From Branchiostoma floridae (taxonomy: Eukaryota; Chordata; Leptocardii; Amphioxiformes; Branchiostomatidae), in the NCBI RefSeq assembly GCF_000003815.2, contig NC_049995.1:14102262-14166261 (forward strand): DNA of 64,000 bases, given 5' to 3'. This document shows, in pieces, positions 6,201 through 63,730 of the stretch. A model generated the notes under the pieces. It did not search any database. It worked only from the letters and a program-made list of their open reading frames with translations, and had not been told where the DNA came from. Position 1 is the stretch's first letter. Each line of letters begins with the position of its first letter. The position numbers were made by a program, and so were the translations under genes.

Positions 6201-9200
6201 AAATCAAGCTTAAAAGGGAAACAAAAACGTCAAGAACGTAAAATCATTTTCTCTGAACTTTCTGTGTAGGGGTTTTCTCCCCTAGATTTTCTGTGTAGGG
6301 GTTTTCTCCCCTAGATTTTCTGTGTAGGGGCTTTTCTGCCCTATTTGTACGGATTTACACGTTGCATTGCATGTTTTTGAGTGCCAAGAACAAAGAAACA
6401 TGAAACATGAAGTTCGACGGTGTCATGTAGGCCAGCTGTGGCTGAATCCTGATGAGGCTGGAGTTCGCCTGTTCATTGACCTGAGAGTTGATGGACCGGA
6501 TGTCGACTGCAGCGGTATAACTGTCCATGCAGTACCCTAGCGAACAGCCGACATGCCCCTTGAAGTGGAACCGGTCCACCAGAAACACGGTCTTCTGGAA
6601 GAAGTGTGGCTCCCTGTTCATCGCGTACTTGTGCAGCTGACAACTGTTGTCGTACACGACTACTCTGGGGGCCACCGGGAACCGTGTCCTCAGGATCTCG
6701 AACGGGTGGCGGGGCGATTCACAGCTTTGCATGGCAGTGAAGCCATAGCACACGCCATGTGGACAGAACAGGGTAAACAGCCCGGGCGTGAGCGAATGGT
6801 GACCATACGACTCCTTCCGGCAGCTGTCCTTCTCCCTCGACTTACTCGCTTCCTCAACAGCGTACCTTGGCAGACCACAGAGCTGAGGAAGGGAAGGGAA
6901 AAAGGAAAGAGTAGATGTAGGGGGAGGAGCGGGGTAGCAGTCAGGGGAAGGTTTCTCAACCTCCTTGAAAGTCTGAATGAGTACAGTCATGAGGGAGAGA
7001 ACAAGAGCAGAAATGTCTGGAGGAAGATGGCCTGCCTTGGTCACACTACAGAGAAAATCCGTCAGTACCGGCGCCTTCTCAAAAAGATAAGCAGAGTACC
7101 GATGGAAACGAGAGCTCGTAAGATCGATCGTACCCTCTGCCACCATCTGCATGATGCGAATGGCTTTCTTGTCACCAGCCATCTGTATCATCCCACACAC
7201 CGGCGTACTCCTTGCCACCTCAGACAGGAACGTGCTGTACTCTGGCGGTGCGCGTGTTGCATGTCCCTCTGCCTGCAGACGCCTCAGGAGATCTGTCACA
7301 TCGCTACGACCCGACTGGATCAGCTTGCCCTGGAGATCAGCCATCTCTTCTTCGCTGATCCCCAGCTTACCTGTAAACTTACCCCTGCCCCTCCGTTTGT
7401 TGCCCGAATACCGGAGGAGCAGATCCCGTGACTTCGCACAGGTGATGAAGACACGTCGGCTGTGGTTCGATCCGGTCACTAGCTTCTCAGGCTGGGCTCC
7501 TGCAGCTTCAGGTGTGGACAGGTACGGGAGGAAATCCTTACGGAACCCAAGCATAGTACCTAAGGATTACACAAAAGAACAATAAGGTCTCAAGATCTAA
7601 CCTCTATGCACAATACTAGTATTTCGACAGATAAAATGAAAGCAGATAAGAGATAAACTTACCGTCACACACTATGATCTTGGGTTCCGGGCCGCATTTG
7701 CTACAGGTGTACACCTACAGTTTGGGAAATAAAAATTGCTATTATAAAGCGTCTGAATAGGTTCAAGAAATATAGCACATTAGAATTCTGACAGTACTAA
7801 TGTGCATATGATATACTTGTGAATTTTTCACCTTTTCCCAATCGATGACCAGTCTGCGGGCCCACGAGTTCCATGCCTGTCGCAACTTCTCGTATGGGAT
7901 GTTCTCGGGATGGCTGCCGCATGCACTTCGGATGTCATTGCAGACGCGTTGTGTTGTCCGCAATGGCTGCTTGCCTTGTACCATCGAGCTTAGGTAGTCC
8001 GCCAAGAGCCCGAAGTAGAACATCACCCTGTTTGAATGCAATACAAAGATACGGTAAGTATAGCCTTCTTTTATCTCGGTGCACTTACGTAACATAATAA
8101 TTGTAATGAATGAATGAATGAAGACCTTTATTGTACCTTTTTGCCCCACTGGGCTAAGTATAGGTCACACGGTAGCAATCAAATATATGTTACAATGGGA
8201 ACAATCCTACACATCTATATATGCAGATGTGCATCTAATCTATTCTAGGACACTCGACTTCCTCTCGCTCCTTGGTAATTGCATAAATGTAGCTAGGTGT
8301 ATAGTTGGTTAGAGTTAGTTGTAATAATAATACAATATTGTATTATATAAGATATTGCTTCTCTATAAACTGATCCGCACGATTCAAAAAGTCAAAGAAT
8401 AGAATTAAAAAAGGAACAGGACATGCCTGTTGTCGAGGTTGTGCAGCAGGTCTGCCGTTCCGTCATACATGTGGCGGCATGCGCAGCTGCCGACGGTGGG
8501 TCTGTAATAGACCACCCGGGAGTGGCGCTTCCCGTCCTCCCCTAGGTAGTCGGCCAGGTTCTTGTACCGTGTATAGATGATAACACGGTCGTGTTGAACC
8601 CACTGTTGCACAATAGGGTCCCGGGTGTCCCAGCCATTCCCGTGAGTGCATGTACCAGATGGCACATCTGGCACAAGGTGGTACGGGAATGTCTCATCCT
8701 TGTCTTCATACCTACAAATATTGAATAGAATTAGTTGATGCTGCATGATGCATTGCAATCAGCTGTAAAGTATTGAAAAATTGGTCAGGTAATTCATACA
8801 ACTACATGCACTTATTCTTACACTGACATACCTGTCAAACTTTTCCCGCATATCCGATGTCCATGGGCAAGGGACTGGGGATGTGGAGACAGACTTAAAC
8901 GTCGGCTCGTCTAAGGTGGTGAATGCTACGTTCACATCCACGTTCCTTTCATCACACCAGTCCTTGTACGTCTCCACGTGAGAGCAGGCCATCTGGCGCC
9001 GACTGCACGTCACACAGGAAAGTCTTCCTCCCCCAACGCGCTTCAAGATTCCTGAAAAACATACAAAATAATGTTTAACTTTAACTGTTATATTGTAGTA
9101 TATGACTTCCCTAACAAATCTCGCACCGAACAAAATACTGTCACGAGACTGCTAAGCCATGAATGAAGCTATTCTTACCATATGTTTCCCCGTCGTGAGC

Positions 9201-41809: not shown

Positions 41810-42717
41810 TACATATTATACACCTGGATGTTGCCACAATTGCGAATGGCTGCTTTTGTTAATACTGTACATGATCCGGAATTTTCCATTTGCAAGCTTG
41901 AAACGATTTCAGACCATGTTTTCATATTGCAGCAATGTACTATATGCTTGAAGTATCTGAAAGTTTCTTGATTTAACACACACATGACACAAAGTTTGTC
42001 CATTGGATATAAGATCACCTACATGTATACCTACAAAAACTTAAGGGCAAGATGCAAGAGTTACATACTTATGATGGAATGGCCTTCCAACAGCCTGTAG
42101 CTAGCCCCCTATCAAACCACTCTTTGGTCACTTTTTTGCTTGAATATAGAAAACAGTGGCCCTGACTCAAAATGAATGTGTCCAAGTCAACTCCAACAGA
42201 AGACATACATTGTAAATAAACTGATTTACTACTACATTTATAATATGACCAACCAAATTTATGACCAACCAAAATTACAAACTTTTGTACATTTACAATA
42301 ATGGGCAAGACGAGTAACTCCTTGAGCAGTTATTGTGTAACTCAGAAAAAAGCTTGCTTAGCTAATGCCTGCACCTTTTCACAAAGTTGGCTTTTAATTC
42401 TTTGAGAAACATTGAATCAGAAAATGACAACAAAATGTTTTAGTTTGTGGTCACACAAGTAGAATGTACGTGTACGTATGTTAATATGTATGTACAAAAT
42501 GTAGTTTAATGCATAGCAAGACCAAGGTAAAATGTTCACAGTGAGTATTCTGTTGAAAAATCATCAGGGAATTGGGATTGGGACATTCCAATCCCTGCCC
42601 TGTCACACACTGACACAGCACACTGGAGGTCAAAGTATCATATTCTCTGTTCTCAAGCCTCTGGTCTGTTATATCAGACTCAGGTCAGTTCAGACTCAGG
42701 TCATATTCTGTCTTGTC
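41810..42717. other. Upstream region of the gene at 42718
   Basis: No repeat or gene is recognised. TCAGACTCAGGTCAGTTCAG duplications occur just before the ATG. Confidence 0.45.
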
Positions 42718-45700
42718 ATGGCATCCTGGTCGCTATATACCTTTGCTGGCCTGTCAGGCCTGAAGAAAGTTGGGTACCAGGACAACTTCGATGATGCTGC
42801 TAGGTATGAGGTTCGGAATGTCTCGAGATCGCTTGATGACCCGACCGCTTTGGTTCTCTGGGTGAGTACACACATGCTTTTCACCATGGGAAGGGAATTT
42901 ATTTACCTAAATACAAACCAGCCAACTCAACTGTATGTTACTGCAAGAGTTATATCCAGCTTATTGCTACAGTACCTGAAGATTTTTGTTGTTGCTTTTT
43001 TGGGGTTGATGGTCAGCTGTCCTAACATCCTATTTGTCTGAAACAAAACTCAACTTTTATACAAGAGGGATGTCATATCAACACCATAAGAAGTGTAGTG
43101 CAGTATATGACATCTTTATACTTTATAAAGTAGTACTAGCCATCTGTACAAATTTTCCTATATTGCACTGTGATGGTAAAAAATGTTTTTTGATACAATT
43201 TCAGTTCCAAAGTACCTATCACAAGGGACAGGCTCCACCCTCCAAGTTGTTGGTCAAACTGGAAGACTACCTAGCCCCACCAAATACAGAGTGGGTTCAG
43301 CTTGAGAAAGCTAGGGATGCCTTGAGCTTCATTGAAACATACCAGCGCATCAGGAAGGAGCTCAGCAAGTCCAATGATGATGATGAAGAAGAAGAGTCAG
43401 AAGAGGACATGTATGCCTATAAATCTGACTCCCCAGGTACCTCTCCCTCCAAGAAGGGAGCAGACATGGAGGAAGAAGAGGAAGCTGGAGAAGACATGAA
43501 GGAAGATGGAGATGGCGTTGGGGACGATGGAGATGGCATTGGGGAAGATGGAGATGACGAGGGGGATGAGGTGGAAGCTGGAGGGGCAGTGGGACGAGGT
43601 GTTCTAGAAGATGAAGATGAAGGTGCGCCCAGTCCCAAAAAGCCAAGGTACGTGTCTAAAAAAGGGAAGAAGTCAGCTCTGGAGAGTGGAGATGATGGTG
43701 ATGACAATGATGATGAAACAGAAGAAAGGCCCATGGAAAGAGGGAACAAGAAGACCAAAGGAAAGAAAGGAGGGAGAGAAGAGCCGAAACAAGAATTTGA
43801 GAAAACTGTTGAAAAAATGAGACGCCTTCATCCAGAAGTCAACACCGCCAATGACAGTCAGATGCTAAATAAGAATGCTGGGGGTTGGAGGAAGGCAGTT
43901 GCTGCACAACTGAAGCTGAAAAAAGTGAGTGTACATTGCCTTTAACTATATCCCTAAGCACTATATACTATTTATCCTATTGCCTTGGACAATTGTATCT
44001 CACTTGTGGAAATTTCTGTTTAGGCCTTAAGGGTACTTTTACACACCTTAGATACTACAAGATTATGTATTTCACAAGCATTAATGTGATGCAAAAATAA
44101 CACTTTCACTCTCAGTGTAAGATATTTCTCTTCATCCTCCTAAATAAAGTTCAACAGTACAGACTGACTATGATTCTTAGTTCTAAAATGCCCTGAAAAT
44201 GAGAATAAAACATTCTGATTTGATCTGTGTTAGTCATCATACATCTTGGGATAAAAAAATCAAAAGCATTTATGCCTTTTATTTCATAATATATGTTAGG
44301 TAAAATAGCCATTCATTTTATGGAATCGATGTACAATGTATGTGGTACATTTACTACTTTGTCAGAAAGTCAGGAAGCAGTGTTTGGCTCTATGGTTTTA
44401 AGATTTTCACTCTGTCCTTCCACTTCATGACCTACATAATTTTGTAGATTACACAGTGATGTTCATGGTGGTTTTGGAAATGACATGTTACTCTTTCATT
44501 TTTCAGGGAGTACGTGAAGTATCGTCCAACATGGCGACACACGTCACGGTAGCTACCATGAGCCCACGGTGCTACCAGGAGGCCCTTGACATTATGTCGA
44601 AGTGGACTTCTGGTCAGTGCCAAGGGCAGGGCAGGAGTCTCAAACCTAGTCAGACCATCTTCAAACCACTCAATGGCTTGTCGGAAGAAGAGGAGGTATT
44701 CAGCCTGCTGAGTGCCTTACGGAGCGGAGCTATGGACAAGGATACGTTTGAAGCGCAGGCAAAGGCTAAGAAGGTGGGTACTTTTTCAACTGTTGCCATA
44801 CAATCAACATGTTTTTGTTGGATATAGAACCACTATTATTGCTGTTTTGCCTAATGACATATTTCCTTATTTTTAAAAAAAATCTTTGTTCAGACCTTGT
44901 AGACTTATGCTTTTTCATCAAGGAAATTATTGTTTGATTAACGGTAAAGAGTTAGAGTTCAGTTCACCAGCATGGCAGCTATGATGTAACATGCTTGACT
45001 ATAATACTGAAAGGCTGTGACACATCTGGTCAGATATGGATGGCCAGAACTTCACTTTGTAGGCCCTGTGCAGATGTATACATTACACTCAAAAACAGTC
45101 TTGTTTTCAGAAAACTACAACTAAAAGCCAGGCTGGCAGAAAGGAGACAGCAAGGGATGTGAGAGAGCTGAACAAGGAGAAGGAGAAGACTAAGCAAGAA
45201 GTGAACGAACTGAACAAGGAGAAGGAGAAGACTAAACAAGAAGTGAACGAACTGAACAAGGAGAAGGAGAAGACTAAACAAGAAGTGAACGAACTGAAAA
45301 AGAAAAAGGAGACAACAGAAAGTGACGTGAATGGACTGAAAAATGAACTCAAGAAAATGAAAAAAGAAATGCAGGGAGAGGTGACAGGTACATGTAAGTT
45401 GCAGAAAGATCAGACGGCCCTGGCAGGGAGCAGTGAGCCCCCAGTACTCCTGGATACCTGGGTTGGCGTGTGGTATAATGGTGAGGGGCCCACTGCTCCC
45501 GGGGTGTGGTATCCTGGCAAAGTGGAGAATGTATTGTCTGGGGGGAGATTGAAGGTGAAATTCATCCACCCAGCCCCCTCATCCATGGCAGATTGTGAAT
45601 ATAACTATGTAACTCCTGATACAAAGGACGAGAAGATAGTCCGGCCAGTATTTGTCATTGCATACAACTTGCAGGTAGAAGAAGTGAGTAAGGGCAAGTG

Positions 45701-45773
45701 GAAAGTTAACGTTAAAGACAAAAAGGAGACTGACAAAACATGCAAAAAGTTCAAGCCCCCTTCTCGCAAGTGA
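42718..45773 (+). CDS. Acidic coiled-coil protein with C-terminal SH3/Tudor-like domain, probably transposon-associated
   Basis: Four exons: 42718-42861, 43205-43924, 44507-44773 and 45111-45773 (stop TGA). All junctions are phase 0, for 597 residues. The N-terminus is MASWSLYTFAGL. Residues about 100-220 are a long E/D/G-rich acidic stretch with KKPRYVSKKGKK. Next is a helical region that can be aligned to nothing I know (GVREVSSNMATHVTV..., SEEEEVFSLLSALRSG). Then three tandem copies of the 14-mer ELNKEKEKTKQEVN form a coiled coil. The C-terminal ~110 residues read as a small beta-barrel: WVGVWYNG, GVWYPGKVENVLSGGRLKVK, CEYNYVTPDTKDEKIV and a final VFVIAYNL. This SH3/Tudor-like module recurs at the C-ends of invertebrate transposon proteins; that link is from memory. 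It lies 2.7 kb before, and on the same strand as, the protease-transposase gene. Confidence 0.75.
45160..45300 (+). repeat. 42-bp coding tandem repeat
   Basis: Three almost identical 42-bp units (GAACTGAACAAGGAGAAGGA...) encode ELNKEKEKTKQEVN, followed by a divergent fourth. The near identity at DNA level points to recent unequal exchange. The unit is 14 residues, two heptads. Confidence 0.9.
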
Positions 45774-46004
45774 GCTACTGTAAGGTTTGGGAATATTTCT
45801 GAACAGAATCTTTCTTTTGTCTTGAGTGTAGTTGAATTACTTGCCCTCACTCACTTCTCCTACATACATGTTCTTTGCAAAGACAAATACTGCCAGGACT
45901 GTCTGAATGTCCTTCCATTCATAGAACCAAGTATAATTGAACAATGTAGTTAACTTGATAATCATATATCAATGTTTGATCAAAACATTTTGGTATTTCT
46001 GTAA

Positions 46005-46490
46005 CAGTGGGGGGTTTAAGTAGCGACTAAAACCTCTGCCAATTAGCTGGTCAGCCTTTTGTAGCATAGTGGTTAGCGCTGCTGGGCTTGTGACCTGGTA
46101 GACCGGATTCGGTGCAGGTTCAAATCCCAGGTGTCGCGCTGTTGTTTCTTTCTGTTTCTACTCCTTTCTTACATTCAATTTGGTTCCCACACCGACCCTG
46201 TGAGCAACAGGCTAAAACATGTGCCACACTGTGAGTAAAAGGCTTAGCGAGAGATGTGCCACACAGGATATCTAACTCGAAGATTCAAGGCCAAATCTTA
46301 AAAAGAAAAGGGGGAGTAGTGGGGGTTAAAGTACCATCAAACAACCATGATGATCCCAATTGACTGGTCAGTCTTTTCCAGCGTTGTGGTTAGTGCATAG
46401 GGTTTGTGATCTGCCGGCCTGGGTTTGATCCTGGGTGTTGGCATGTTTGTTTCTTTCTGTTTGTAGTACTTTCTTAGATTTCCTCCTGAT
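46005..46490 (+). mobile_element. Two tandem tRNA-derived SINE copies
   Basis: Copy 1 (46005-46317): GTAGCATAGTGGTTAGCGC (A box) and GCAGGTTCAAATCCCAGG (B box), then TTTCTTTCTGTTTCTACTCC. Copy 2 (46318-46490): GCGTTGTGGTTAGTGCATAG, CTGGGTTTGATCCTGGGT, then TTTCTTTCTGTTTGTAGTAC. Both are preceded by GTGGGGGTT(T)AA and an AATT(A/G)(G/A)CTGGTCAG block, so the two are full-length relatives in the same orientation. They lie 3' of the gene ending at 45773. The sequences do not fold as intact tRNA genes. Confidence 0.75.
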
Positions 46491-48453
46491 GCGCTATTAG
46501 AATTATGTTGCCAGATTTGCTCACAAGATTAGCCATGTTTTGTACCACACCATTGTAAATTTGTTAAAACAATACAATTGAATCTGTTGTGTGTTTATTA
46601 TGTATCATGCTTAATGATCTCTTCCCATCGCTGAACTGAATAAACTGTTTGGAGACTTGATCATGAGCTGTTTATATCATTAATAGCAAGTACCTCACAT
46701 ACACTAAATGTCAGCACACTTAAGAATAAGAATAAGAAACAGTTAACTGTTGACTATAAAGTTCAAGGTGTCCAAGAATTTAGTCACCACTTGAACTATG
46801 CATATCAGCGTAAATAGACATCGCGAGCACTTTCACTTCTCAAATTTCAGGACAGAAATGCATAGTCAAGCTCAGCTTTAGCAATTCCTTTACTATCATA
46901 TAAGTAGCAGACTCAGCTGTAAGTGCGTGTGTCTAAAATTAAAGAAAAAACTACCACAGTGATGAATCCTCAAATTTGGTTAGAGATACAATGTACCAAT
47001 GAAATTCAATCAGATTTCTTTCCTACACTTGTAGCATTACAGTAAATATTTCTACATCATTATATACATATAAGTAGCGAATCAAATCTCCTTGTTGCTG
47101 CTTTTATTTAAAGTCATTAGGGTCAGAAGATATCTTGCAACATCTGCCGCTCAACTCTCCCATTGTTTGACTGTTTGAGACACTCATCTAGTTTTAGCCC
47201 AGTTCTCTGCATCTGTATCACAGGTACACTATACTACTGCCCTTCTGTGTAACACACCAGCTTCTGTATCTGTATAGCCTGTATATCTGTGTTACACATT
47301 ATGTATTTGTGTATTTATCTAACTGTTCTCCACTTCCCTAACACATTGAGCTTCTTGAGCATTATTCTCTATTGACATATTGTGAATGAGTCTGGTGTTT
47401 GTTTCTTACATGTGGGTATTTTACTGTCGCTGTGCTATCTATCAACCAGCATTTTACTTTTTTAAGTTATTTCCAGAACAAAATACACTTTTCAGACATG
47501 AACCAAAGATCATCTCCAGTCTCCACACATCGGCTCGAAATCAGTCACAAGTGACTTGTATGACCCTTGTCTAATTGCTGTTGGTGACTTGTATGACCCT
47601 TGTCTAATTGTTGTACGTGCCAGCTCTGTTTTTTGAACCTGAATATGCCTGGAGCAAGACATCTTTTCCAGCTGCTGGCAATTCATCAAACCTGCTACCA
47701 CACTAGAGATCACATGCATGTAGCAACACATGGGAGTTGGGATAGTAAGCTTTCTAGATAGCTTTGCCCATTGGCATGTGCATAACGGACAGAAAATAAT
47801 CCATAGATAAAGTAGAACATTTGATTGTAAATGCAAACTTCACAGAGATAGACATTGATGCAAGTCTTTCAAAGGGAAAATGTCTAAGTACAAGCTGTAC
47901 ATCCTTACATCTGCTTACAACACACTTACATGACTCAGAGGCACATACTTTGACAATTCATACAACATTGCACACTTCATAGTTTGGGCCATCCTTGAAT
48001 ATCAAACAAACTTTTTCTGCAACAAGATCTTGTTTTTCCTAACCCACCCCTAAACAAAGATAGCATCCCAACATCCCTTGACAACAAGCAGGGGGATTTT
48101 TGTTCCAGCAGTTTGACAGCAGGTCATTTGGGTTTCAAATCCCTTGAAGCCTCCAATCAGGAGGCAGATGCAAGCTGATTGGTTATCAGGCACTCCAGTT
48201 TTGGCTCCCACTTTTGGCGGGAAACTCGGTATACATGTGCAGGCTACCCCACAAGATTACTTCATCTTCTGCACAGACAACCAGCCGGTATGGGTCTATA
48301 CTGTTTTCATTATTTTGTACCTTGGTTGTAATACCGTAATGTACAATGTTTCTAGCTTGTTTAATATGAATACTTGAATCAATCATTGTAGAGTTGTGAA
48401 CTGTTTCAGTTTCAGTTTACTGTACTGTTAATTTTTTCAGCACATGACAGACA
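46491..48453. other. Spacer between the two right-hand genes
   Basis: No gene is supported. AATAAA-like TGAATAAACTG at about 46635 could serve the upstream gene. A 33-bp direct duplication (GTGACTTGTATGACCCTTGT...) occurs at about 47548 and 47584. An upstream non-coding exon for the next gene may lie here (GT donor after CAACCAGCCG at 48290), but this is speculative. Confidence 0.45.
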
Positions 48454-51400
48454 ATGTGGACTGATGAGTTGCCACAGTACTGTGACCTGTCACAGACTGC
48501 ACAGTACAGACCTCTATCCCAGGAGGATCGAGAACTTGTAAGTTGATTCTTCTCTGAAGGATTTATTCAAATCATTCAGCATTTGTGTAGTAGACCTTAC
48601 TCGAATTGTTACTGTGCCCCCATGACCTAGACTGCCCATGACCCACACTGAGGTTCAGGGATACACCCCACACAAATCTGGGGGTATACATATATGCAGC
48701 AGCCGCTTGAATTGGGGGTGCAGAAATGTGTGCATACACACCGAGTATTTCCATGGCCCAGTGCTGTTCATACACAGTACATACGGTACAATATACCCTC
48801 TCAGATTGTGGTGGCCTTTATGCCCCAAAATGGCTGCAATGACTAGATACTGTTGGGTCAGCATCCAAAATCTGCATTTAATTACCAAAAATTTGTCTTA
48901 TCCTATCTCCAGGTCACCAAACTTTTCAAAGATGCTAGTCCCAGTGGAAAACGCGGGGTAGACTTGTTGACATTACAGGATGGAGAATGGGTCCCAGACG
49001 ATGTAAGTATCTGTTAAAGATATCATTTTGATGGGAGCATGATTGAACTAATTTCTGCTGTAACTTAAGTCGTTATAGTTTGCATCTTCAGATGTATTAA
49101 TAGCTGTAGATGCCCTATTTAAGATGCACCTATCTTCAGACGGATTTCTTTCCTGATACACAAGTGGTGTTTGTTGACAACAAATGTATACTTGAGAAAG
49201 ATTAAAGCAACAATGATGGTAGCACTGAATAGCAGTAACACTAAGTGGCAGCTCATGCCACAAAATACAGCAGTCACCATCAACTGCACATAAAATGTTT
49301 GGGAGTCGGCCTCATAGAGAAACTAGATTTCTGTTGCCAACTCCTCTCCATCTGTGAAGCTGAATAAATAAAGGAATAGATAAATATGCTACGGCCGCGT
49401 GGCGCGTTGGTACACCCGATCCCTCGATCTCGGAAGTTAAGCAACGCGACGGTCCGGACAGTGCTTGGATGGGGGACCAACCAAGGACGTCCGGATTGCT
49501 GTAGCCTCACGAAGTTTCCACGAAATCGTCTTCCGGGAGGGACGTAAAACGGGGGTCCCGTGCTCGAGGAGGTGCCTCGACCACGTTAAACAGCCTCATT
49601 ACTCATACTGGGTACCTACTGGCTGGCAAAATACACCAGATGATTAAATATTAAACGGTTTTTAGGTTGGACCCGTTATGGATTTGTTTGTGTTTTGAAG
49701 CAGAATTTGATTTCTGATTCAGAAGGTTTCATGTATGGAAAAGGTCCGAAATTGTCTAGAATATGTTCCTCATTATGTTTTTGATAGAATATTTGCGCTT
49801 ATTGTTACTTCTGTCATCATGCGTGTTATTGAGCATGTTCAGCGATTCTGATTCATAGTAACATGTTAACAAGTGTGATGTGATTTTTTTTGTCAGTCAC
49901 ATTGATTAAAACTTATGTTATTCCCACCAAACCATACCATGTCTATTGATACTGTATGGCTACCCTAGACACAGTGTCCTTCAGAGGGAAACATAAAATA
50001 CCTTTTTGCGAAGTGAAAAAGCTTTATATTTAGGAATGACACTGTTGGATCTGCTATAGTGTTTGTATAGTAGAAAACCTACAGTAGAAATACAACCGTT
50101 TTCATGAACACTGCCCTCTGCAATTGACCACATTGTTTTTGTAAGGTTGCATCGCCATAGAATTACAATTGTTCTGTCAAAAAGATCATGCTATAACATT
50201 CTGTCTAGTGTTCAACCCTTCAGTTCGTTGTATTTATTTACATTCAACACAAATGAAAACAAGCGAAATACAAAAGCAATGATTCTTAAATCAGGACAAG
50301 ATGTCTTAGTGTAACACCAAATCACACCTACATTCACAAATCTTGCAGCAGTTACCAGTTGTAACCCAGAATGAGGAATTTTCATGAACAGCATGATTGT
50401 ATTTCATACTCAAATTATTACTCAGATTAACGCGACCAAACTTCATTAATTGGATCCTCACCATTCTGTTGGCAACTATAGACGAAGTGCTGTGGGTTTC
50501 AGCTTTGAGCATGCGAAAAAAAAGGCAGCACACCATTTTATATATATATATATACAACATTACAAAAATATCTCAATGGGAAAGTAGCCTTAAGTAGCTT
50601 TTGATTTGACCGAGTACCATTTCTTTATCAACCTAGATCATTGAAGAGTACCTGGAAGTCATTCAAACGTCAGCGCCTAAGGTAACTTTGACTTCATTAT
50701 TAATAAGTACATTGGCAATGGATTTTGTGCACTTAAATTCAAAGGAAATGTAACTGTACACATTATGGCATAATTTATGGCATTGTACATATTAGTCTTC
50801 TAAAGAGTTTGTTGACTCAGTGATGTTTCTCTTTTGAGAAATCACTATTCTTGTGGATATCATAATCATACGAAAAAAATGTTTCAGACTTGCAAAATTG
50901 AGTATTTCAACTACAACGTCTACTTGAACAAGTTAAGGACAAGGCCAGTCTTCGACAATTACAAGAGTAACCAGAAGACACAGAAGGTATGAATGATTGT
51001 TTTGTTCATACTAAGGATGTAATAGTGAACATTTCTTGTTCATACATGTTCGCAGTACATGTTTTCCTTAGTTTTTGTCTCAACAAGTCAAACTTTAATC
51101 AAACCTGTTCTGTTCTATTCTAGGACATACAAGGAAGTGACATAGTTTTCATGCCAGTTCACCAAGCTAACCACTGGGGGCTTCTTGTAAGTTGCTCTTA
51201 TTATTTGGTCCCTTACAGCAACAACTTTTGGTCCATATTATTTTCTTTTAGCTTTTTGTTGTGGTGTCTTTGTTTGCGCTTTCATCAAGTTGTTGTAAGC
51301 CTGGTACGCTTTGAACTGAGGGCATAGAATGAAACAAATAACAAAGATAAGATCAATGGACTCTGTCACTGTTGCTGTGCTCGAAAGTAGACTGGATCCC

Positions 51401-54400
51401 ACACTGATGAAATATGGATAATTTCTGCCTGCTTTTGGTGATAAAAATAGGACGTGAGGTTGACAGCTCTTTGCATAGTCAAACAGGGCAAACAACTTCA
51501 CTTTCCTCTGACATTTTGAGACCTTAACACATCGAGGAAGTCGCTGTAGTGATAGAACACCGAGATGGCTGCGCACAGAGGGAAGGGGTGATGACGTCAC
51601 CTGAATAAGCCCTAGGCTAAGGAAAATAGCTTGGCTTGACAGAAGCATCTACAAGTTCTAGCCTTATCTGTGGGGCTAATCATGTGTAGCATATCAATTA
51701 TCCATGCCCTGCATGCAAGGGGCTAAACAGTGTGTCTTCACCCAGCCCTGTTTTTATCTCCGTCATTTTATTCTTAATTAAGTAGAAGACCAACTATTTC
51801 TTCATAATATATACAAACCCAGCCCATATAAAACAGAACACAAAACATAACCATGACCCTCTTAGTAGAGATGTCTCAGCCATTTAAGTCTACACCTTCA
51901 AAAACCTTGGCTTAGTGTGGAACTTCTGGGGAACATGATTCTTGGGCAAGACCCCCAGGTACAGTAGTATCTTGGCCCAGTTTGGTACTTATTTGTGACT
52001 ACTAGTAGTTACCCTTCCCATAGCAGTCAGCTCTGTACAGGCCTTCTCCAGTGGGTTTAACATCAGTATCTTACATGTAAGTAGGTCCTGACAAATTGAC
52101 CATGTAATTGGTAAGACAGTCAGCATCACATGGGGTTAATGTGACACAGTAACTGTTATGTTTTTTTCTTCAGACATGTACATGTACATGTACAATGTAC
52201 ATTTTATCATACACAAAGTCTGAGTAAGAATTTGTGATACAAAGAAGTAAAGATTACATCATAAGTTTGTATTTTTGGAAACCACTTCAGTAATTGGTGA
52301 CAAGTGACTCTTTCAATCAGGCTGACTAGAGGGATCTGTGTCCCACAGGGGGTGACCCAGATACAACAGGCAGTGTGTACAGTGTACAAACAGTAGTTCA
52401 TGGGAGTGGGTCAATGACTTGGCTTACATGCATTTCTGTTAAAAGCAGACTGTCTTGTTGGCTGTTTTCACTTAAATTCTTGTTAACGCCAAATCACCTT
52501 TTTTCTTAGGGTAACCTAGATTCCACCCTCACACTCAGGGTTGACATCGCGGCAAAGCCTAACGATATCACCCCTGACAATTCAGCCAGGGTATTTGGGT
52601 ATTTGGGGCGCCCTGCTTATGAATATTAATGAGCTTGCCTGATTTGTCGCGGGCCAATCAGCGACCGGATTGCAAGTTTCGAACAAACAGCGTACGGCGC
52701 GGCGTGTACAAAGATCTGTTTATCTTTGCGTGATGGTAATGTTTTTTTTTTTCGTATGCTAGGTCGGTACATGTATACGGTGATGCCGTGGTTACCCTAT
52801 ACCCACAGAACCGACAAATGTTAAATTTGGTGCCTGATAAAGACGTCTGGACGCTGAAAGAACGTTACGCCGGTACTGTTATCTTGCTCTTGAATATTAA
52901 TGAGTCGCCTTATATGGCGCCTTTCCGAGCTTTCGACAACAAAAAGCCGATAGGCTGACAGTTGGTTAGAAGCCACGCCCCAAATACCCAAATACCCTGG
53001 CTGAATTGTCAGGGGTGATATCGTTAGGCTTTGCCGCGATGTCAACCCTGAGTGTGAGGGTGCCTAGATTCGTTCTTTTAAAAAAAAATGGGTATTTAGA
53101 GATTTTCGGTCATCGACGTGGGTTTCAAATGTTAAATCTTTCAAGATATTACGATGTGAAACTACGTTCCATCGACTTAACGATACCCAAATACCCTATT
53201 TTTATACACAACGGATATAGGTTACCCTACGGATAAAGGTAAACTAACGTTAAATATACATGTTGTTTATTTTGAAAATTTACAATCTTGTTTTGTTTAC
53301 CCATGCTTCTTTTTTCCCCCACCTTATCTCTTTTTAAAACTTTTACATTCTGCAGAGGATGTCATCCATAAACTTTAATTGTGCCCTTCAGTGGAAAATC
53401 ATCTAGAAAAGTTGGCTGGAATTTTTTCAGTAGCCGGGTGAAAGCCCCGGGGCCTCTAGTACACACAGTTATTACTATTTTAGGGACTAACAACTTAGGA
53501 CAGCCTGTATCAAGTGACCTGTGTGACCATGTCACGCGGTTTGACATGGTAGTCTCCACTTCTTCTTAGCTTTTAAAAATTCTTAATTTTGTGTGTCCCA
53601 TTTGAATATGCAGGTGTATTATCCAAAGAAGAAGTGGGTCATTCTGTTTGACTCATTGCAAGTATCTTGCTGCATCAATCAGAAGACAGCTTTTGAGAGA
53701 GCAAAGTAAGTATTTCTCCGTCTCAGCATCTCAGAGTCAGTCGGACATTTAAGACCACCCAAGACGCCACTTGCCATAATTTGATATAGTTAATGATTTC
53801 TTTTAAGATACCATTTTTATGTGCTTGATAATCATGGAAAGACTAATTTTGTCAATATTATCATAATTGTGTGGAAAAGTTCCATCAAGAATGATAAATG
53901 ATGAGCAGAACACTGACATATAGAGCTTCTTTTGTATAGTATTTTTATAAAAATAGATACATTTCATTCCAAGTTCCTTTTATATGAGGAATGAAACATT
54001 TGAAGCAACATCATTTTCTTATGAATAAGACAGTTCAAAATTAAATTGCTTCCTTTTTCACCCAGACGTTTCTTGACTTTCTACTTGCCTGAAAGTGAGC
54101 TAAACTGGAAGGACTGGACGTTCTACATGCCCTCACCTGATGTAGGTCTTTTCTTTCCTCAACTTAGAAATTATTATAATGATGAAATAGAATTCATTTT
54201 ATTAAGTGACGAGTATATTTACACTGACGAGTCATTGTTGTGGTTTATCATATCAATTTTTGACTTCTTATCTAAAAATGATGGGAGTACTGTACAATGT
54301 AGAGCTATTTATACATGACTGATTGTATGATGTGTATTACAGATTAAAGTTTATGAGTCATCAATTTTGGCTGTTGTTTTGAAGGCTCATAATCATGATC

Positions 54401-57400
54401 ATGATCTATATGCACTTATAATATAAGTGCATATAGATTTACAGTTACAGTTACTAACTGTAAATCTAATTTTAAAAAAATCACCAAAACATATCCATAC
54501 AAAAAAAAATGTATCAAATTGAATGTTATTCAAGGCAGCTGGATTTTCTTCCTTTTGCAGGAAATTCCCCAACAAAAGAATGGGGATGATTGTGGTGTCT
54601 TTGTTTGCCAGGTATGACTGTTCTATTCATAACTCATTAAAGATGGTGAAATTTATTTGTTTATTCAAATATTTCCCTTAATGGCATCAACATTAGAGAG
54701 TTGCATGAGGTTTTACACCACCAGTACCTTGCTTGTTATACCTAACTGCACAGAGTGACCTAAAAACCAAGCCCTGAAAGATTGCTGTATGTAACTGCAG
54801 TTGTGCATGATGTAAGGAATGACTGTTAAACTGCTTGGCACACAACTAATCAGTACCTAGTACCTGAGCTCAGACAAGAAATACTGGCACATGTAGTCAT
54901 GCCTCGAAGTTTGAAGTTGACTTATCAACCTAGGATTGATGTGTACACTTTCCCAGAACTACAATTGTATCTAGATGCTCGATGTCATAAAGTACTGTCT
55001 ACCATTCTTATTACACATCCCGTACAAGACAGGTCATCAGTGTAAATTGTAACCAGCTGCTTCTGGACTGTAATATTGCTTTGAAGGTGTTGTGTTATGC
55101 CAAAGGGCAGTTTGGGTGTAATTTTGCTTATTGGGCTATACAATCATCTTTGTTTTATTAGTGGTTATACCAGCTATACAGAATGCATAATCAGGTCCAC
55201 TACTATTGCATCTTAGATTATAACTCTCTTTCTGTTTTTCCTTCAAGTATGCATTCCATCTTGCCAACAAGATACCCCTGAACTTTTCACAGGTAAGCCA
55301 ATTCAATACCATTTTGTCAGTTTTTGCAGCCAAGCATTTGATAACATTTTTGTCAGTATATGATGTGCAGCCAAGCAAGAGCACAATGTAGCATACAGTA
55401 CTTATCATGCAGTTCAGGTAATTGAATCCTTGGAATAGACAGAAGACATTTAGCTTTGCTGAGGGAAGGATATTATAGAAAATATATTGTAGATTCTAGT
55501 AATTAATCAATTTTCAAACATATGCGTTTTAGGATTTTGGATGTTCATGTACATGTACGTAATGTAAGGGTGTCCCTTTCATCCCATAGTCTACAAGTAC
55601 GTGATTGTACAAATGTAGCACTGCGTCACAGGGTTGTCATTCAAAAATTCTGATTTCCGATTTCCAACATAATTGTAGATTCCAGACCCAAGGTCAGCCG
55701 GGCCCCTAGTAGTGAGGAGTGGCCTGTTACATAAGCTTCAGACAGTGGCATTTGTGTTATACAGACTATGTGAATAGCAGAGGAGTTAAAGCCATGATAC
55801 TCAGTATTCCATTTCTACATTCATGAGTCAACAATGCACCTTAGTTTTTTAAGTTTCTTTTCAAATTTGCTTTATTCAAATTTATTTTGGTCTATCCAGG
55901 CAAACAGGGCAATGTTACTACATCTTGGTTGAAATGGAATTGGGGACATTTTCCCCCACATTAAATTGTTCTCATATGACATGTAAAATGGAGCGGAGAT
56001 GTGTTGACTTCATCAAATGTCTTATTTTTACTGTGTTGGAATGCAGATTTTCTATATAAAGCTAAAGCTGTAACGGATTATTTCTGCACCTGTGTATGTT
56101 TGGATAAGATGGAAATATCAAGCACATATTATCATTACCATCACATCAAGCTATTCTGTACTTCCTTATGTGTTGACCAATGAGACTCATTATCTATATT
56201 TTCTGCAGGCTGCAATTCCTAACATTCGTAAGTGGATGGCACTGGAGATACACAGTGGATCCCTGAGGTATCAAAATTTCCACTTCACTCTAGATTGCAA
56301 ATTGACATAAAAAAATATCTGTATCTGTATTTATATTGCCGGTATAGCCGCTGTTCGGCGTAACACACCAGCTTTGCAGGCACAACATCAAATTCAAGTG
56401 TACTCATGAATGTGCACAATCCCTTCTTCGCTAGGTTCTTAAACTTTGAAACTATATGTTTTCACCTTCTTGCTCGTGACATGACTTCTTGGATTTTGCA
56501 GGAAAGAGCGCATTAAGCTGTTACCACTTGAAGCAATGCCAACAAGAAGGTATGTGCTGTTCCATCTACTAGTCATATTTGACACTAAGAAAAATTACTT
56601 AATGCCAATGTGCAATGTAGTTTCTGCTAACTGATGTTGATTTACACTGAAAATGTTTTTTGTCTTCTTACTATTCTATACTGTAACAAATTGAATGTGT
56701 AATCTTCCATGATTTCTGTGGCCACATACATATGTTTCTTGCAATATCAATGAATGATCCTACCTTTAAATAGTGCAAGATGTAGTAACAATTCATTTTG
56801 TCAGAGACAGAAGTAAAGGATTTGGCTTATATGATTTGGGTTATCATGCTTGTCTCTATGCCATATTTTCTCCTGTTAAATTGTCTTACACCAGTTTTGT
56901 TTGTAATAAGCAAATCTTTGCTAAAGATGTATTTGTATTTTTTTATTAGCTACATTTTACATATTAACAAACTTTTGTTTCTTTATCTAGGAAAAAAGTG
57001 AGGGATGATTCAAAGAAGCCCCGTCACAGGTCTCCCCCACCAATGCCAGGACAGAGGTCATTACAATAACTTATAATTCGTTTGTGCACATGCAAACATA
57101 CTTGTATTATATCATAGATGAATATGCAATGTGGTTTTGTTCACTGTGCTTCAGTCTGTAAATCCAGGTAATGAAAGAGCCGATATTTCTAAGCAGGCCT
57201 CACAATTGTTTGTTCAGGCCAACAAAGTCATTGCTGTTCATGGTACCAAATGAATGCCTAATTGTGGACAATGTGCACTTACATGTACATTGTTACTTAT
57301 TACATGTCATAACTGTTGCAGGTGTGCCGTTATCGCGAGAGCGCTTCGTTCAGCCTTGGAGCACAGCCTGAACAGTAGTAGTTCTGGTAATGATGCAGAC

Positions 57401-60400
57401 ATAAGCAGTTGTGATACATCTTGTAAGTACACTTTCTGTTTAAGTGAGTTGATTTGTTGCATTAGCTTGTTGGTTATCAAGAATGAAATATACAATCTGG
57501 TAACAACATTCAATTTCAATTTTGTTAGACTTGCCAATAGAAATATACATTTCATCTGTTTCTGAGTGATGCAGATTTTTGTAACACACCACTATCCACC
57601 AATTGTTGGAGAGCAAAGTAGGGCACGCTCTTGTTGCTTTGTGAGGAAATGCCTCAAGGCAGACTTGAGTCTGAGGATAGCTTAAACATAATTGCATTAT
57701 TTTGTGTTCCCATTACATTTTACCTACTATCTATACTGCAATGGAAGTGCATGCACTTTGGGTCATCCCAAAAATGCTCATATATATACTAGTATAAGCT
57801 TGCAAAATTTATAAACATTTAATGGTAGAATTTTAGGTGAAATCAAATCTGCTATGAATTACTAGAAATTTCCAAAGGCATGCTATATAGTCCACTTGTA
57901 TTAAAGTCAAACAGGTACTAATATTTTGTCGGCTCAATCAAGCCTGTTTTGTTTTGACATACATGACATTGTACATTAATCATCATATTACAGTTGACGA
58001 TGATTCAACTTCGTCGCTGACAAGGCTGCTCACATCTACTCCAAAGGGAAAAACAAAGCCACACCTCTTCAAGAAGAAAAAAGGTACAATTTTCATGTTG
58101 ATGAAATATCACATAGAGAGCATTAACACTGCTCACTTACAGAAATTGTGATACTAGCAGTTGTTCAACAGAACAATAAAGAACAGCACTGGTGACAAGT
58201 GCACCTTGAAAAGCCATGATCATTCCATAATTATGTACAAGAATGAAATTAACTTGAAATAAAAAAAGTACCAATCTGTGTTACAGCTGAAAAGGCAAAA
58301 AGAGGGAAATATGCTCAGATGGGTACTTCAAGAGAAGCCATCACAACAGCCTGGACTACGTACTGTGGATGTGGCCAGGACTGTTGTGGGAAATTGGGGA
58401 CTGACATCATACGAGTTTGCAGGGATAAGTTTTGGAGCTATAATCAAGACAAACAACGAGAGTTTATCCAAGGGGCTCTGGAAGCAGGAGACAGGAGGAA
58501 AGATGGTGGATCATATGAGTTCAGCATCCAAGGCTACAAGATATGTGCCAGGGCTTGGTGTCTTGCACATGATGCAAAGAAGTCCAGGTAATGTCACCAC
58601 ACACATTACAGTACACTCAGACTACATGTAGCTGTTCCAAACCCAGAAGCTATCCAGTTTTGCCATCATCTATGGCAAATTTTCCATTTTTATGAAAATT
58701 TCTCTATATTTATCATTTAAAAAAGCAACCATATGTGGGAAGGGACTGGTACCCTGTACATTCGGCCCTCATTCAACGTGGCCATGGCCGCATTGGACAG
58801 GTGGCCATCTTGGGAAGTTTGCTTCATGCTCCTATAATTTTTTTGGGGGAAAAAAGTGGCCGTTATGGCCAGATGATCTGCTACTTCAAGAGGCTTAGGT
58901 TTGACTGTAGTTCATAGCCTAGTTTCAAACCACTCCAGACCAGGACCCAATGTCCCTTTTTAAAATATCTATGTAAGGTCAGGGCCTGAAGCACTTATCA
59001 GTTTTAGCATGTATTCCATAATACTGATAGAAGTAGGCTGAGGTATCAAATAAAACATAACGTTAGATATATTCTTGATGCTTTGCAATCCCTCTATATG
59101 CATTTTTTTTTAAATTTAGATATACGCATACATGTACTATCCTCTTCAAACCGTTACAGGTTCTATGAGATTGTAAAGGAATACGAGGCTGGAAAGAAGG
59201 TTGTGCCAGATCTACGGAATGGAATGAAGTATGAATCTCGTAGGTACTTAGAGGCCAAGCAGTGGCTAGGTGAATATGCCAAAAAATATGGTGACATCAT
59301 GCCAAACAGCAACAACATCCACCTGCCTCAGTGCCTTCAAAAGGTAGATGTATTCAACAGCTACCTGGAAGAGATGTCTTACGAGAACCATCTGCAACTA
59401 ACATGGTTCAAGGCCATGTGGAGAAAAGAGTTCCCTAACCTGAAAATTCCACCGGTAAGTACTGGATAATACTTCTATTACTTATTAAGTGTTATTCATT
59501 GTTTTAATTTTTTGAGGACAAGTGAATGTGACGTGGTCCTGACCCAAAGCATACTTACTTATACAAAAATCATTATTGTCCATAGGGAGGTACATTGTCA
59601 TGAGTAGGGGTGGGTACCGGTACAAAAAATTCAAGTACAGTCCAGGTCCAGAGGATCAGGTCCAGATCCAGATCTTGACCTAAATCTGGACCTAACTGTG
59701 AATGGAGGATACTCAAAACAATGGTCCATTTTGCTGCAAAGAAATCTGTTTGGTGGAGTATCCTACATGTACCTTCACGTAAACACTGCTAACTGCCTCT
59801 TTATAGAAAATTCGTAATAAGGCTGACTGTCAACTCTGGGGTTCAGAGTCATCTTTATCTCAAGTTTGGAGTTTGGACATACATACAAGGACATTTTGAC
59901 ATATCATCAATGCATGATAGATAAAATACCTAGGTCAACCCTTTTTCTGGAATTATGGCATCCAGAGGGCACAAGGTACAATGTACATTGTACATGTACT
60001 ACATATTAAAGTCTACTTGGCTCTTGTTACTTTTTTGGACCAATAAGCCTCAAAACATGTTAACACCTGCCGCCATATTGCCGGTATAATCTGTTCATAT
60101 GCATATCTTTCAAAATGTGGTATACTGAATTTTTTTCAGGTCCGGTCAAGTAAGAAAAAACAGTTTTGCACCAGTAAACTGCACCGGTACCCACTCCTAG
60201 CCATGACCCAAAGCATTATCATGGCCATAATCATAAACAGTGCATGGGGCTACAGAAATTACAAGTACAGTTGTACTTATAATATCCATCTTGAGTGCAA
60301 CAAGAGGTATGGAAAGTAGTAAGAAAACATTTTGCAATCAACTGATTTACTCACAGTTCTCATTCCACTTCTCAAAACATATGAATATGTTCTACAGATT

Positions 60401-62446
60401 TGTCAAACCATGCCTTTGAATTATCTTCTCCTTAGAGAAATCGTTTCACAAAATGTGATGAATGTGAGGAACTCAAGAAACAGTTAAAGGAGGCCAAGAT
60501 CGAGGATGACTTCAATGCATTGAGAGAACGAAGACAAAGCCACCTTCAACTTGCAAAGTAAGTGAGAACCTTCCAGTTAAAGACAGGTATTAAATTTCTA
60601 CATTTTGAAATCAATATTGCACCACTTTGAATGCATTTACCTGAGCATATTATCATCTTTCCAGATGGCATGAAGTAGAAAAAATATTTTTTTTCATGGA
60701 AGTATGTGGTTTGACTATGATGTTAAACTAATCTGAAAGTATAGCTAAAGTATCTAGATTAAGTTTGTAGATGACATGAGTATCTATATAAGTTTTGTTG
60801 TTACAAAGCAGTGACATACAATTTGATACACCTTGTCATCCTTGCAGCTCTGCACGCCAGAAATATTACAAACACATCAAGAAAGCAAAGCAGTACCCTG
60901 ACAATTACCTCAGCCTGATCATCGACAGCATGGATCAGAACAAAACAGCGTTGCCCCACTTTTCCACCCCGACCAAGGTAATCAATAATAAGCTGCTAAA
61001 GTACATGTCGGTCTGAACATATGCATTTATTCATTTTGTAGGGTTTATAACTACATGTATCAGTAATTGTTTTCATGGTTGTTTTTGTTTTGTAACAATG
61101 AGTAGCCCTTAGTATTGGCAAAACCTTTGTTTACAAGAACTAGGTGAACCACTTAGTAATAGTAAAATGCAGAACAATGTGTGTGCCTGCCTCCGCTGCA
61201 TGCACATGATAAAAGTGAAATCAAGAAGAAAGCAGCTCTGGCACTCGTGGAGAGGGATCTTGACGAATGTACTCTGCACCAACTAATGGGACACTTCTAC
61301 AAAGTCTGCCAGTGCAGAGTCCCATGTCTTATACATACCCTGCTCTACACGTGCAACCTGCCCACCATCAATTTAACACTATGCAGTGGCTCTCGCTCCG
61401 ACAATACCTATACTCTGTGGGTGTCGTCTTCAACAAAGAATAGTATAGCATGTTTCTTTGGCCATTTCTGTTCAACTCAGGCTATTTTTGACGGAGGTTT
61501 CGAAATAGAATAAGGGGTTCCATCTTGTTCTATTTGTTCGATATGACGTTCGATCAGGATCAGTCCATTGGATCATATGTCAATTTTGACTTAAACTGCA
61601 CAATGATTCTTTAGTTAATGATTTGATTTATAAACATTTGTGGTATGATATAAACATTTGTGGTATGATGAACTAAGGATGGAAATGATAGCCCACTGTT
61701 AACAAGTGACAGCAATTTTGCCTTTTTATAAAGAATGGACATTTATTAAACAAATCCTGTTTCAACTGATTAAAGAGGTCAATTCAAAGCACTACATGGG
61801 GTAAAACACTTTCTATTGCTAACAACAAGGATGTGATATGATTTAATACATGTATATTAGGTAAACCATCTTTCACATTTTTATCAGGTGCAAAATTGGA
61901 TAGATCTTGACTTTATCTGAATTCATCTAACCCAATACAGAATCAGTCATCACTGGAACAGATGAAAGTTCACCTAACAGGAGTGTTGGCACATGGACAA
62001 AGGAAGTCCTATGTGTATGCATGGACTTCCAAATACCGCATGGATGTGAACATCACGACAAACGTCCTGATTGATGTCCTAACAGACATTTCTAAGGTGA
62101 GGCCTAGTGATTAAGACCACCCTCCTTGACATTTTCCTATGTGATAATATGTCACTGATAAATTCCGTACAAATTTTTTAGGTCATACTGAATATTTCTA
62201 ATTTGTGATGAAGAAAATTAAGTCATGTATATTGGGAAATCAGTACTGCTCAATGGGAAAATGGTTTCTTGCGAAACTGTAACCTGCAACTAAGACCTTT
62301 AAATTTGTGCCATTGCCTTGCAGGCGAGAGGAGGTCGGCTACCCAGCACACTATATCTGCAACTGGACAACAGTGCAAAGGAGAATAAGAACAAATTCAT
62401 GATTGCTTTCTGCACTTGGCTGGTAAAACTGCAAGTCTTCCAGAAG
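48454..62446 (+). CDS. SENP/Ulp1-like C48 protease fused to a DUF7869-like transposase domain (partial, continues right)
   Basis: Exons: 48454-48537, 48913-49002, 50637-50681, 50888-50986, 51124-51186, 53614-53705, 54066-54141, 54561-54611, 55248-55292, 56209-56267, 56502-56549, 56991-57056, 57322-57422, 57994-58083, 58287-58587, 59160-59454, 60436-60557, 60848-60977, 61941-62096 and 62324-62446. All phases agree, for 712 codons, still open. An in-frame stop just upstream supports the Met (MWTDELPQY). Residues about 28-225 are an Ulp1-type protease: NHWGLL (His about 123), LFDSL (Asp about 140) and PQQKNGDDCGVF (Gln 188, Cys 194), so the active site looks complete. A disordered Ser/Lys/Pro linker follows. 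From about 345: CGCGQDCC cluster, KFWSYNQDKQREF, IHLPQCLQKVDVFNSYLEE, KCDECEELK, IIDSMDQNKTALPHF (Asp 602) and LYLQLDNSAKENKN (Asp 686), as I recall for DUF7869 proteins. The last catalytic segment lies beyond the window. Confidence 0.85.
49388..49650 (+). mobile_element. 5S rRNA-derived SINE
   Basis: 49388-49507 follows 5S rRNA from end to end: GCTACGGCC, CGATCTCGGAAGTTAAGCAA (A-box region), GTGCTTGGATGGGGGACC (C box) and GCTGTAGC. It differs at several places, so it is not a functional 5S gene. A body follows: TTCCGGGAGGGACGTAAAAC, GGGGGTCCCGTGCTCGAGGA and GGGTACCTACTGGCTGGC. This 5S head plus unrelated tail is the SINE3 plan. It lies in an intron of the protease-transposase gene. Confidence 0.8.
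52524..53062. mobile_element. MULE-type MITE with 87-bp perfect TIRs and 9-bp target duplication
   Basis: The first 87 bases (CACCCTCACACTCAGGGTTG ... TTTGGGGCG) are exactly inverted at the other end. CCTAGATTC flanks both sides (52515-52523, 53063-53071). Length 539 bp, no coding frame of note. A 9-bp duplication with long TIRs is the Mutator/MULE signature. The identical arms imply a very recent insertion. It lies in the intron between exons 51124-51186 and 53614-53705. Confidence 0.92.
54404..54466. repeat. Two adjacent small hairpins
   Basis: ATCTATATGCACTTATA and TATAAGTGCATATAGAT form a 17-bp perfect palindrome with a 1-base centre (54404-54438). Overlapping its end, ATTTACAGTTA ... 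TAACTGTAAAT forms a second hairpin (54436-54466). Intronic. Confidence 0.8.
58738..58907. mobile_element. Truncated mariner-type MITE
   Basis: The right end AGGTTTGACTG followed by TA (58897-58909), with interior GGCCATGGCCGCATTGGACA and GGTGGCCATCTTGGG, resembles the CAGTCAAACC family. A clear left TIR is missing. Confidence 0.55.
59605..60199. mobile_element. hAT-type MITE, 595 bp
   Basis: It starts TAGGGGTGGGTACCGGTAC and ends GCACCGGTACCCACTCCTA. Flanking 8-mers GTCATGAG (59597-59604) and GCCATGAC (60200-60207) match at six of eight positions. The interior has repeated GGTCCAG words. Intron between exons 59160-59454 and 60436-60557. Confidence 0.75.
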
Positions 62447-62994: not shown

Positions 62995-63730
62995 GACCCC
63001 ATTCACACTAAAAAAACGATTCGAATAAAACATGTAAATTTAGCAGTGTGAACGCTCCCAAATCACTTGGATTTCATTGAAACGAATCCTTCGCGATCCA
63101 CCTCGGGAAGGTGGATAGAACTGGGGCAAGTGGATAGAAATGCGCTGCGGGGAGTCTCGATTCGTGCGATTCGGCAGTGTGAACGCGCAAATGGATAGGA
63201 TTCCGCTTGCTCCGATGTTCATTCAGGAACTTGGGGTCTTAGTTCGCATCGCACGGGAAACACAACACACGCCAGATCGCTTAATTTTTCAGCTAGCATT
63301 TTCCGCCGTGTTTCACTTGCAACAACAATGAGCATAAAGAAAGAGGAGTCACCATTTGCCAAATTGACAACCGAATAAACGAAGCTGCTCGTTTTCATCT
63401 GGGAGTGGGAGGAGTCGCAGAAAAAGCTCGGAAGGTCCATAAAAACAGGGACATTTATGAAGATACATCTAAAGGAATGGCGGAGTTAAGAAATCCCTTG
63501 ACCAGTGCAGAAATAGAGTGAAGAAACTAACCACCAACTACTGCAAGACGTAGCGATACGTCTGTGAAACGCAACTAACGTTTTATTCGGATAAGACTGA
63601 GGGCGCACTAATCGGATTATCGAAGAGCAGTGTTAACACAATTTTGGATCGGATAGAAATTTTTTTATTCGGATAGATGTTTTATTCGAATCGTTTTTCT
63701 AAGTGTGAACGGGTTCTTGTGAACGGGGTC
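62995..63730. mobile_element. PIF/Harbinger-type MITE, 736 bp, TTA-flanked
   Basis: The left end GACCCCATTCACACTAAAAA then AACGATTCGAATAAAAC is mirrored at the right by GTTTTATTCGAATCGTT ... GAACGGGGTC. TTA lies on each side (62992-62994, 63731-63733). The inside repeats AGTGTGAACG and GTGGATAGAA words and keeps no transposase. Confidence 0.8.

Follow-up and report, generated by a model that had tools for sequence, protein, structure and literature searches.

A probable fusion gene in Branchiostoma floridae joins a SENP-type SUMO protease to a transposase-like DUF7869 body

Does a 64,000-nucleotide stretch of the Branchiostoma floridae genome (the window, G000:C17:14102262-14166261) encode a single protein in which a SUMO protease of the C48 class is joined to a transposase-like body and, if it does, from where did each half come? 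A first-pass annotation had drawn one gene of twenty exons here, in phase and without a stop over 712 codons, and the splice ends and open frame bear out that path: exon 1 opens with ATG, AG precedes the other 19 exons, and GT follows all 20. Given independent exons, all 20 would be open by chance in intron-like sequence with a probability of about 10^-17.6, and the G+C content of every exon (20/20) is higher than that of the next intron (for exon 20, than that of the next 500 bases). The right flank supplies exon 21, which contains GHTHEDVDQMFSR and whose donor is one chosen from several frame-keeping donors, and exon 22, which ends in a stop; with these added, the complete gene spans 20.5 kb in 22 exons and encodes 953 amino acids (aa; G000:C17:14150715-14171215).

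In Pfam, Peptidase_C48 matches aa 98-230 (E=3e-16; 60.4 bits, with a gathering cut-off of 20.7) and, within the window frame, DUF7869 matches aa 619-712 (E=8.3e-33; profile 1-92 of 192), while in the 953-aa protein the whole of DUF7869 (PF25273) is matched (E=6.7e-71; 238 bits, cut-off 26; profile 1-187 of 192). The protease residues H123, D140, Q188 and C194 and the aspartates D602 and D686 all lie in the joined frame at the positions claimed for them, and the protease also has W54 and W124, which we take to be the two tunnel Trp residues of SENP proteases. It is very probable, to judge from the sequence, that this is one fused gene encoding both domains.

The same arrangement recurs in the window's own genome (513 Mb in 431 contigs, given here as C-numbers, the fused gene of the window being the C17 gene). 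At least four further loci, on C8, C16, C2 and C7, carry protease exons ahead of DUF7869 exons on one strand, the C7 locus being known from search rows alone. With phases imposed from the window gene, 22/22 exons fit in C8 and 21/21 of those sought in C16, with GT-AG ends and the linker exons included, and the joined frames are open over 947 and 783 codons, respectively. All four catalytic residues and both Trp of the protease are kept in 3/3 paralogs, as are the four Cys of exon 15, D602, D686 and the motif HTHED[VI]D. The single two-domain gene of the first-pass annotation is thus supported, with paralogs that keep its exons, but its count of twenty does not, as the gene has 22 and runs beyond the window. 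Over aa 1-250 the paralogs are 52-70% identical and their synonymous sites are mostly saturated, so that the fused gene shows no sign of recent copying.

What is the origin of the protease half? Its closest solved structures are SENP1 (76 bits) and SENP2 (75 bits), followed by SENP5, SENP3 and Ulp1; it is 31% identical to human SENP1 and shares with SENP1 and SENP2 the catalytic H-D-Q-C and both tunnel Trp. On C10 the genome has a conventional SENP gene, whose single-exon pieces are 47-87% identical to human SENP1, and 6/6 of the introns in its catalytic domain recur in the fused gene as introns 2, 3, 5, 6, 7 and 9, in the same phase, although introns 3 and 6, which fall in stretches of unequal length, can be placed only approximately. 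The fused gene differs in its strong divergence, in two extra introns (4 and 8) and in having no stop after the catalytic domain: the C10 SENP gene ends RMVWEILHKKLV-stop, whereas the same exon in the fused gene reads RKWMALEIHSGSLR, then splices on towards DUF7869. As the SENP introns recur in phase, the module appears to be a SENP duplicate with its introns and, in our judgement, not a transposon's protease; a retrocopy origin is ruled out by the retained introns. The protease half thus probably derives from the host SENP gene, and host-derived exons, as looked for in a host-transposase fusion, are found here. The earlier assignment to the C48 class is confirmed, with the correction that this half looks to come from the host and not from a transposon.

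Both halves of the fused gene show constraint. Comparison of the C17 and C8 genes gives a nonsynonymous divergence (dN) of 0.21 and a synonymous divergence (dS) of 1.25 over aa 1-250; with synonymous sites saturated, dN is 0.41 over aa 338-618 and 0.25 in DUF7869, and constraint is loose in the C-terminal tail (dN 0.74). Under simple decay, the protease half would be expected to have gained 1.9-10.6 nonsense changes and the DUF7869 half 2.6-14.5, and none is seen, which is weak evidence at a 20-fold CpG rate. At the DNA level the two genes align in 12 pieces, 11 of them exons, and the most conserved piece is a 48-bp block around TTTTGGCGGGAAA (45/48), which sits 241 (C17) and 250 (C8) bases before the ATG and whose 34-bp core occurs twice in the 513 Mb (backward control, 0). 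We take TTTTGGCGGGAAA to be an E2F-type site, a motif selected after viewing the sequence. The gene body is CpG-poor, with observed/expected ratios (o/e) of 0.31 in exons 1-12, 0.35 in exons 15-20 and 0.13-0.29 in introns; three of four nearby repeats have 1.15-1.27 and one has 0.28. CpG loss under methylation is a proxy in use (PMC8857923, in the part available).

Synonymous differences between C17 and C8 stand at 0.58 in exons 1-12 and 0.87 in exons 13-22 (Fisher p ~1e-13), with a step between exon 12 (0.28) and exon 13 (0.85), exactly at the module join. The C17-C16 contrast is mild (0.77 over aa 1-250, 0.82-0.85 further on), and trees of four paralogs, weakly supported (53 and 88), disagree between the halves. 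The step would be accounted for if the 5′ module had undergone gene conversion or had been coupled to another DUF7869 body; two genes would account for it also, but the conserved linker conflicts with that.

In the DUF7869 body, D602, D686 and HTHED[VI]D form three conserved acidic motifs, whose order we take to resemble that of DDE enzymes, and KLKRKAKTQTQATTSKRLKKS, in the C-terminal region, looks like a nuclear signal. DUF7869 is matched 70 times in the genome, several of the matches having stops; contig C6 holds 29 of the 70, many at 26-28 Mb. At G000:C18:13527338-13528134 and G000:C6:25557793-25557885 there are protease exons 51-61% identical to those of the fused gene but without a DUF7869 match in the neighbourhood, which suggests solitary or decayed copies. 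At G000:C19:16408672-16409415 lies a 616-aa frame free of stops, an intronless relative that shares 24% identity with the region ahead of DUF7869. Two further loci (G000:C4:28700000-28721754 and G000:C16:3552172-3576595) are nearly identical over more than 21 kb and include a DUF7869 gene for which no protease exons were detected; they align in pieces of 88-99.8% identity and read as a segmental duplication, and the alignment, of which the left edge was not reached, defines no transposon ends. A search of viral and prokaryote contigs confirmed no relatives, and none of 21 viral loci picked out by a motif matched significantly (best E 6.3).

Might the halves instead belong to two genes side by side, one for a SENP-like protease that ends just beyond exon 12 and one for DUF7869 that starts in or after exon 13? 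The exon 12 donor, GAG/gtcatt, scores low (although lower scores are found at exons 10 and 14); a TAA lies at 57067, 10 bases beyond exon 12, an ATG in frame is found at 57254, upstream of a CpG-rich exon 13, and the synonymous step described above falls at this very place. However, exon 12 could be skipped without loss of frame, the extension from that ATG scores -12.1 as coding sequence over 22 codons, no AATAAA or ATTAAA lies between 57069 and 57254, in C8 and C16 exon 13 is preceded by no in-frame ATG, and exon 12 ends in a GT donor in all three genes, with read-through stops 64 (C8) and 40 (C16) bases beyond it. Exons 12, 13 and 14 recur in order and in the same phases in C8 and C16, where 0/75 intron windows fit equally well in each case (the closest, for exon 14, scoring 34.1 vs 35.3), and the C8 linker matches that of C16 at a score reached by 0/1000 shuffles. 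A search of the gap in the window gene returned, as its best exon chain, exon 14 exactly plus exon 13 with a shorter donor, at a score reached by 0/150 and 2/1000 shuffles and by 0/33 nearby non-coding gaps. Because C8 and C16 keep all exons sought, linker included, with open frames and catalytic residues, two separate genes are unlikely, and we hold this arrangement of neighbours to be very improbable.

A mobile element bearing its own C48 protease fused to a transposase, as in Ginger1, would have precedents in the C48-transposase fusions of Ginger1 and Mutator elements (PMC2836005, in the part available), and the five dispersed loci with both halves, together with the 70 DUF7869 matches, would fit such an origin. 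Yet a transposon protein is hard to reconcile with SENP introns in common, 22 exons, paralogs as diverged as those described, and a promoter core that is not repeated. The first-pass annotation had directed attention to terminal inverted repeats right of 64000; no terminal inverted repeats were found flanking the fused gene, and no long inverted repeats between the flanks 42000-48453 and 68955-84000. Pfam at E<=1 returned C48 and DUF7869 only, so that there is no INT-like DDE domain of the Ginger1 kind, and the protease is N-terminal, not a C-terminal Ulp1/OTU domain within inverted repeats; we consider this origin quite improbable. A further reading, in which DUF7869 has no transposase ancestry but is an ordinary domain of the host, and the gene a plain host-host fusion, is consistent with the silence of Pfam on its function, with the absence of any PDB match or of any paper found that names it, and with the C4/C16 duplicated block. 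We think it unlikely, as the three acidic motifs are kept in 3/3 paralogs, in what we take to be DDE-like order, and the many dispersed copies, some with stops, also argue against it.

We lean instead, on balance, towards a long-resident host gene of a small dispersed family, in which a SENP1/2-type duplicate would have been joined to a transposase-like DUF7869 gene; the CpG-poor gene body, conserved residues, SENP introns, promoter block and lack of terminal repeats all support residence in the host. A domesticated gene was among the options that the first-pass annotation listed and is the best of them, while cleavage of its own polyprotein, another, finds no support here. Several observations weigh against the resident fused gene. 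The protease stands a long way from human SENP1, which scores 76 bits against it, 97 bits against yeast Ulp1 and 154-256 bits against SENP3, 5 and 2, so the protease is strongly diverged, and for DUF7869, as said, neither a PDB match nor a paper was found. The promoter motif is absent from C16 within 1000 bases (TTCGCGG at -736 only), and the phases of the paralog exon fits were imposed. The exon-chain score is also reached by 21/68 tiles of window positions 1-41000, some holding other genes, so this test is unspecific outside local composition; exons 13-14 are CpG-rich for the fused gene (o/e 0.79), and linker exons searched for in the C2 locus were not detected.

For the resident fused gene we propose that a SENP1/2-type SUMO-protease gene was duplicated and that the copy, with its introns, became joined to a DUF7869 gene; one transcript would then give a 953-aa protein with an N-terminal deSUMOylase, a variable linker and a DUF7869 body with a Cys cluster, the three acidic motifs and a basic tail. 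This body may bind DNA or chromatin, the protease would then remove SUMO from proteins at the bound site, and activity might fall in S phase, via the E2F-type promoter site; transcription, enzyme activity, DNA targeting and timing are all inferred here. In the simplest model, a body of transposase origin that binds DNA or chromatin would direct a nuclear SUMO protease, and we suggest only tentatively that deSUMOylation is targeted to DNA by DUF7869. A more elaborate version seems doubtful: a selection-kept bifunctional SUMO protease and DDE-type nuclease, E2F-controlled, which would handle DNA in S phase while clearing SUMO locally, and whose protease module and promoter would have been exchanged as a unit, at intron 12, between DUF7869 bodies of different age.

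Table 1. Predicted parts of the fused gene, in window positions or, for the last two exons, in positions of the right-flank stretch (L030)
Feature	Position	Strand	Remarks
Promoter block	48195..48242	+	TTTTGGCGGGAAA, E2F-type site (presumed), at 48212-48224
Exon 1, ATG start	48454..48537	+	C8 exon 1 identical at 19/28 aa
Exon 2	48913..49002	+	intron 2 common to host SENP gene
Exon 3	50637..50681	+	intron 3 common to SENP; equal phase, approximate place
Exon 4	50888..50986	+	SENP without intron 4
Exon 5, catalytic H123 and W124	51124..51186	+	intron 5 common to SENP
Exon 6, catalytic D140	53614..53705	+	intron 6 common to SENP; phase 2 in both, approximate place
Exon 7	54066..54141	+	intron 7 common to SENP
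Exon 8, catalytic Q188 and C194	54561..54611	+	SENP without intron 8
Exon 9	55248..55292	+	intron 9 common to SENP
Exon 10	56209..56267	+	SENP counterpart is last exon, stop at its end
Exon 11	56502..56549	+	splice ends, frame, paralog fit
Exon 12, basic linker exon	56991..57056	+	weak donor; conserved in C8 and C16
Exon 13, linker	57322..57422	+	frame; recurs in paralogs
Exon 14, linker	57994..58083	+	frame; recurs in paralogs
Exon 15, Cys cluster C363, C365, C369, C370	58287..58587	+	kept in 3/3 paralogs
Exon 16	59160..59454	+	splice ends, frame, paralog fit
Exon 17	60436..60557	+	splice ends, frame, paralog fit
Exon 18, D602	60848..60977	+	37/43 aa identical to C8; D kept in 3/3
Exon 19, DUF7869 begins	61941..62096	+	frame, Pfam
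Exon 20, D686	62324..62446	+	frame, Pfam
Exon 21, HTHEDVD	L030 5772-5926	+	completes DUF7869 together with exon 22
Exon 22, stop	L030 6384-6954	+	gene end

The introns between these exons (Table 1) hold insertions of their own. Intron 2 contains a CpG-rich 5S rRNA-like sequence (window 49387-49507, + strand; 51.3 bits), probably a 5S-derived short interspersed nuclear element or a pseudogene. Inverted-repeat insertions resembling miniature inverted-repeat transposable elements lie in introns 5, 16 and 20 (52524-53062, 59597-60207 and 63009-63701), that in intron 5 having 87-bp arms of 100% complementarity, and intron 20 also has about 2 kb of 18-bp tandem repeats (L030, 3076-5146). Elsewhere in the window, an open frame on the - strand at 6358-7566, in a CpG-rich stretch (o/e 0.75), has a borderline match to a KDZ transposase (26.9 bits, cut-off 26.6).

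How does this gene compare with known systems? As far as the available part of PMC2836005 goes, Ginger1 transposases bear a C-terminal Ulp1 domain, Ulp1 is also found in Mutator elements, and the lancelet has both Ginger1 and Ulp1-bearing Mutator. A covalent link of C48 to a transposase, which was unfamiliar to the first-pass annotation, is therefore known, but no host SENP joined N-terminally to DUF7869 was found in the literature listings searched. Ginger1, like the fused gene, has an Ulp1 domain and a transposase (here a transposase-like body) in one chain; the same part of PMC2836005 gives it an INT-like transposase, 0-4 introns and terminal inverted repeats, in contrast to DUF7869, an N-terminal protease, 21 introns and no terminal repeats found. 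In CSB-PGBD3 and SETMAR, going by sources available in part, host exons are likewise spliced to transposase-derived exons, of piggyBac and mariner respectively, whereas here a SUMO protease is the partner of a DUF7869 body, and there are several dispersed copies. PGBD5 is also an intron-containing domesticated transposase present in cephalochordates, but it is of the piggyBac family, and the available part of PMC3902484 mentions no protease.

Several transposon groups have acquired Ulp1 proteases; here the direction looks reversed, in that a host SENP would have gained a transposase-like body, with the catalytic residues of the protease and the presumed ones of that body kept and several copies retained. 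Such a fusion would permit us to ask whether a DDE-type enzyme benefits from the removal of SUMO at DNA, or whether the transposase part does no more than direct a deSUMOylase, and it would tie DUF7869, a domain without a function in Pfam, to a defined pathway.

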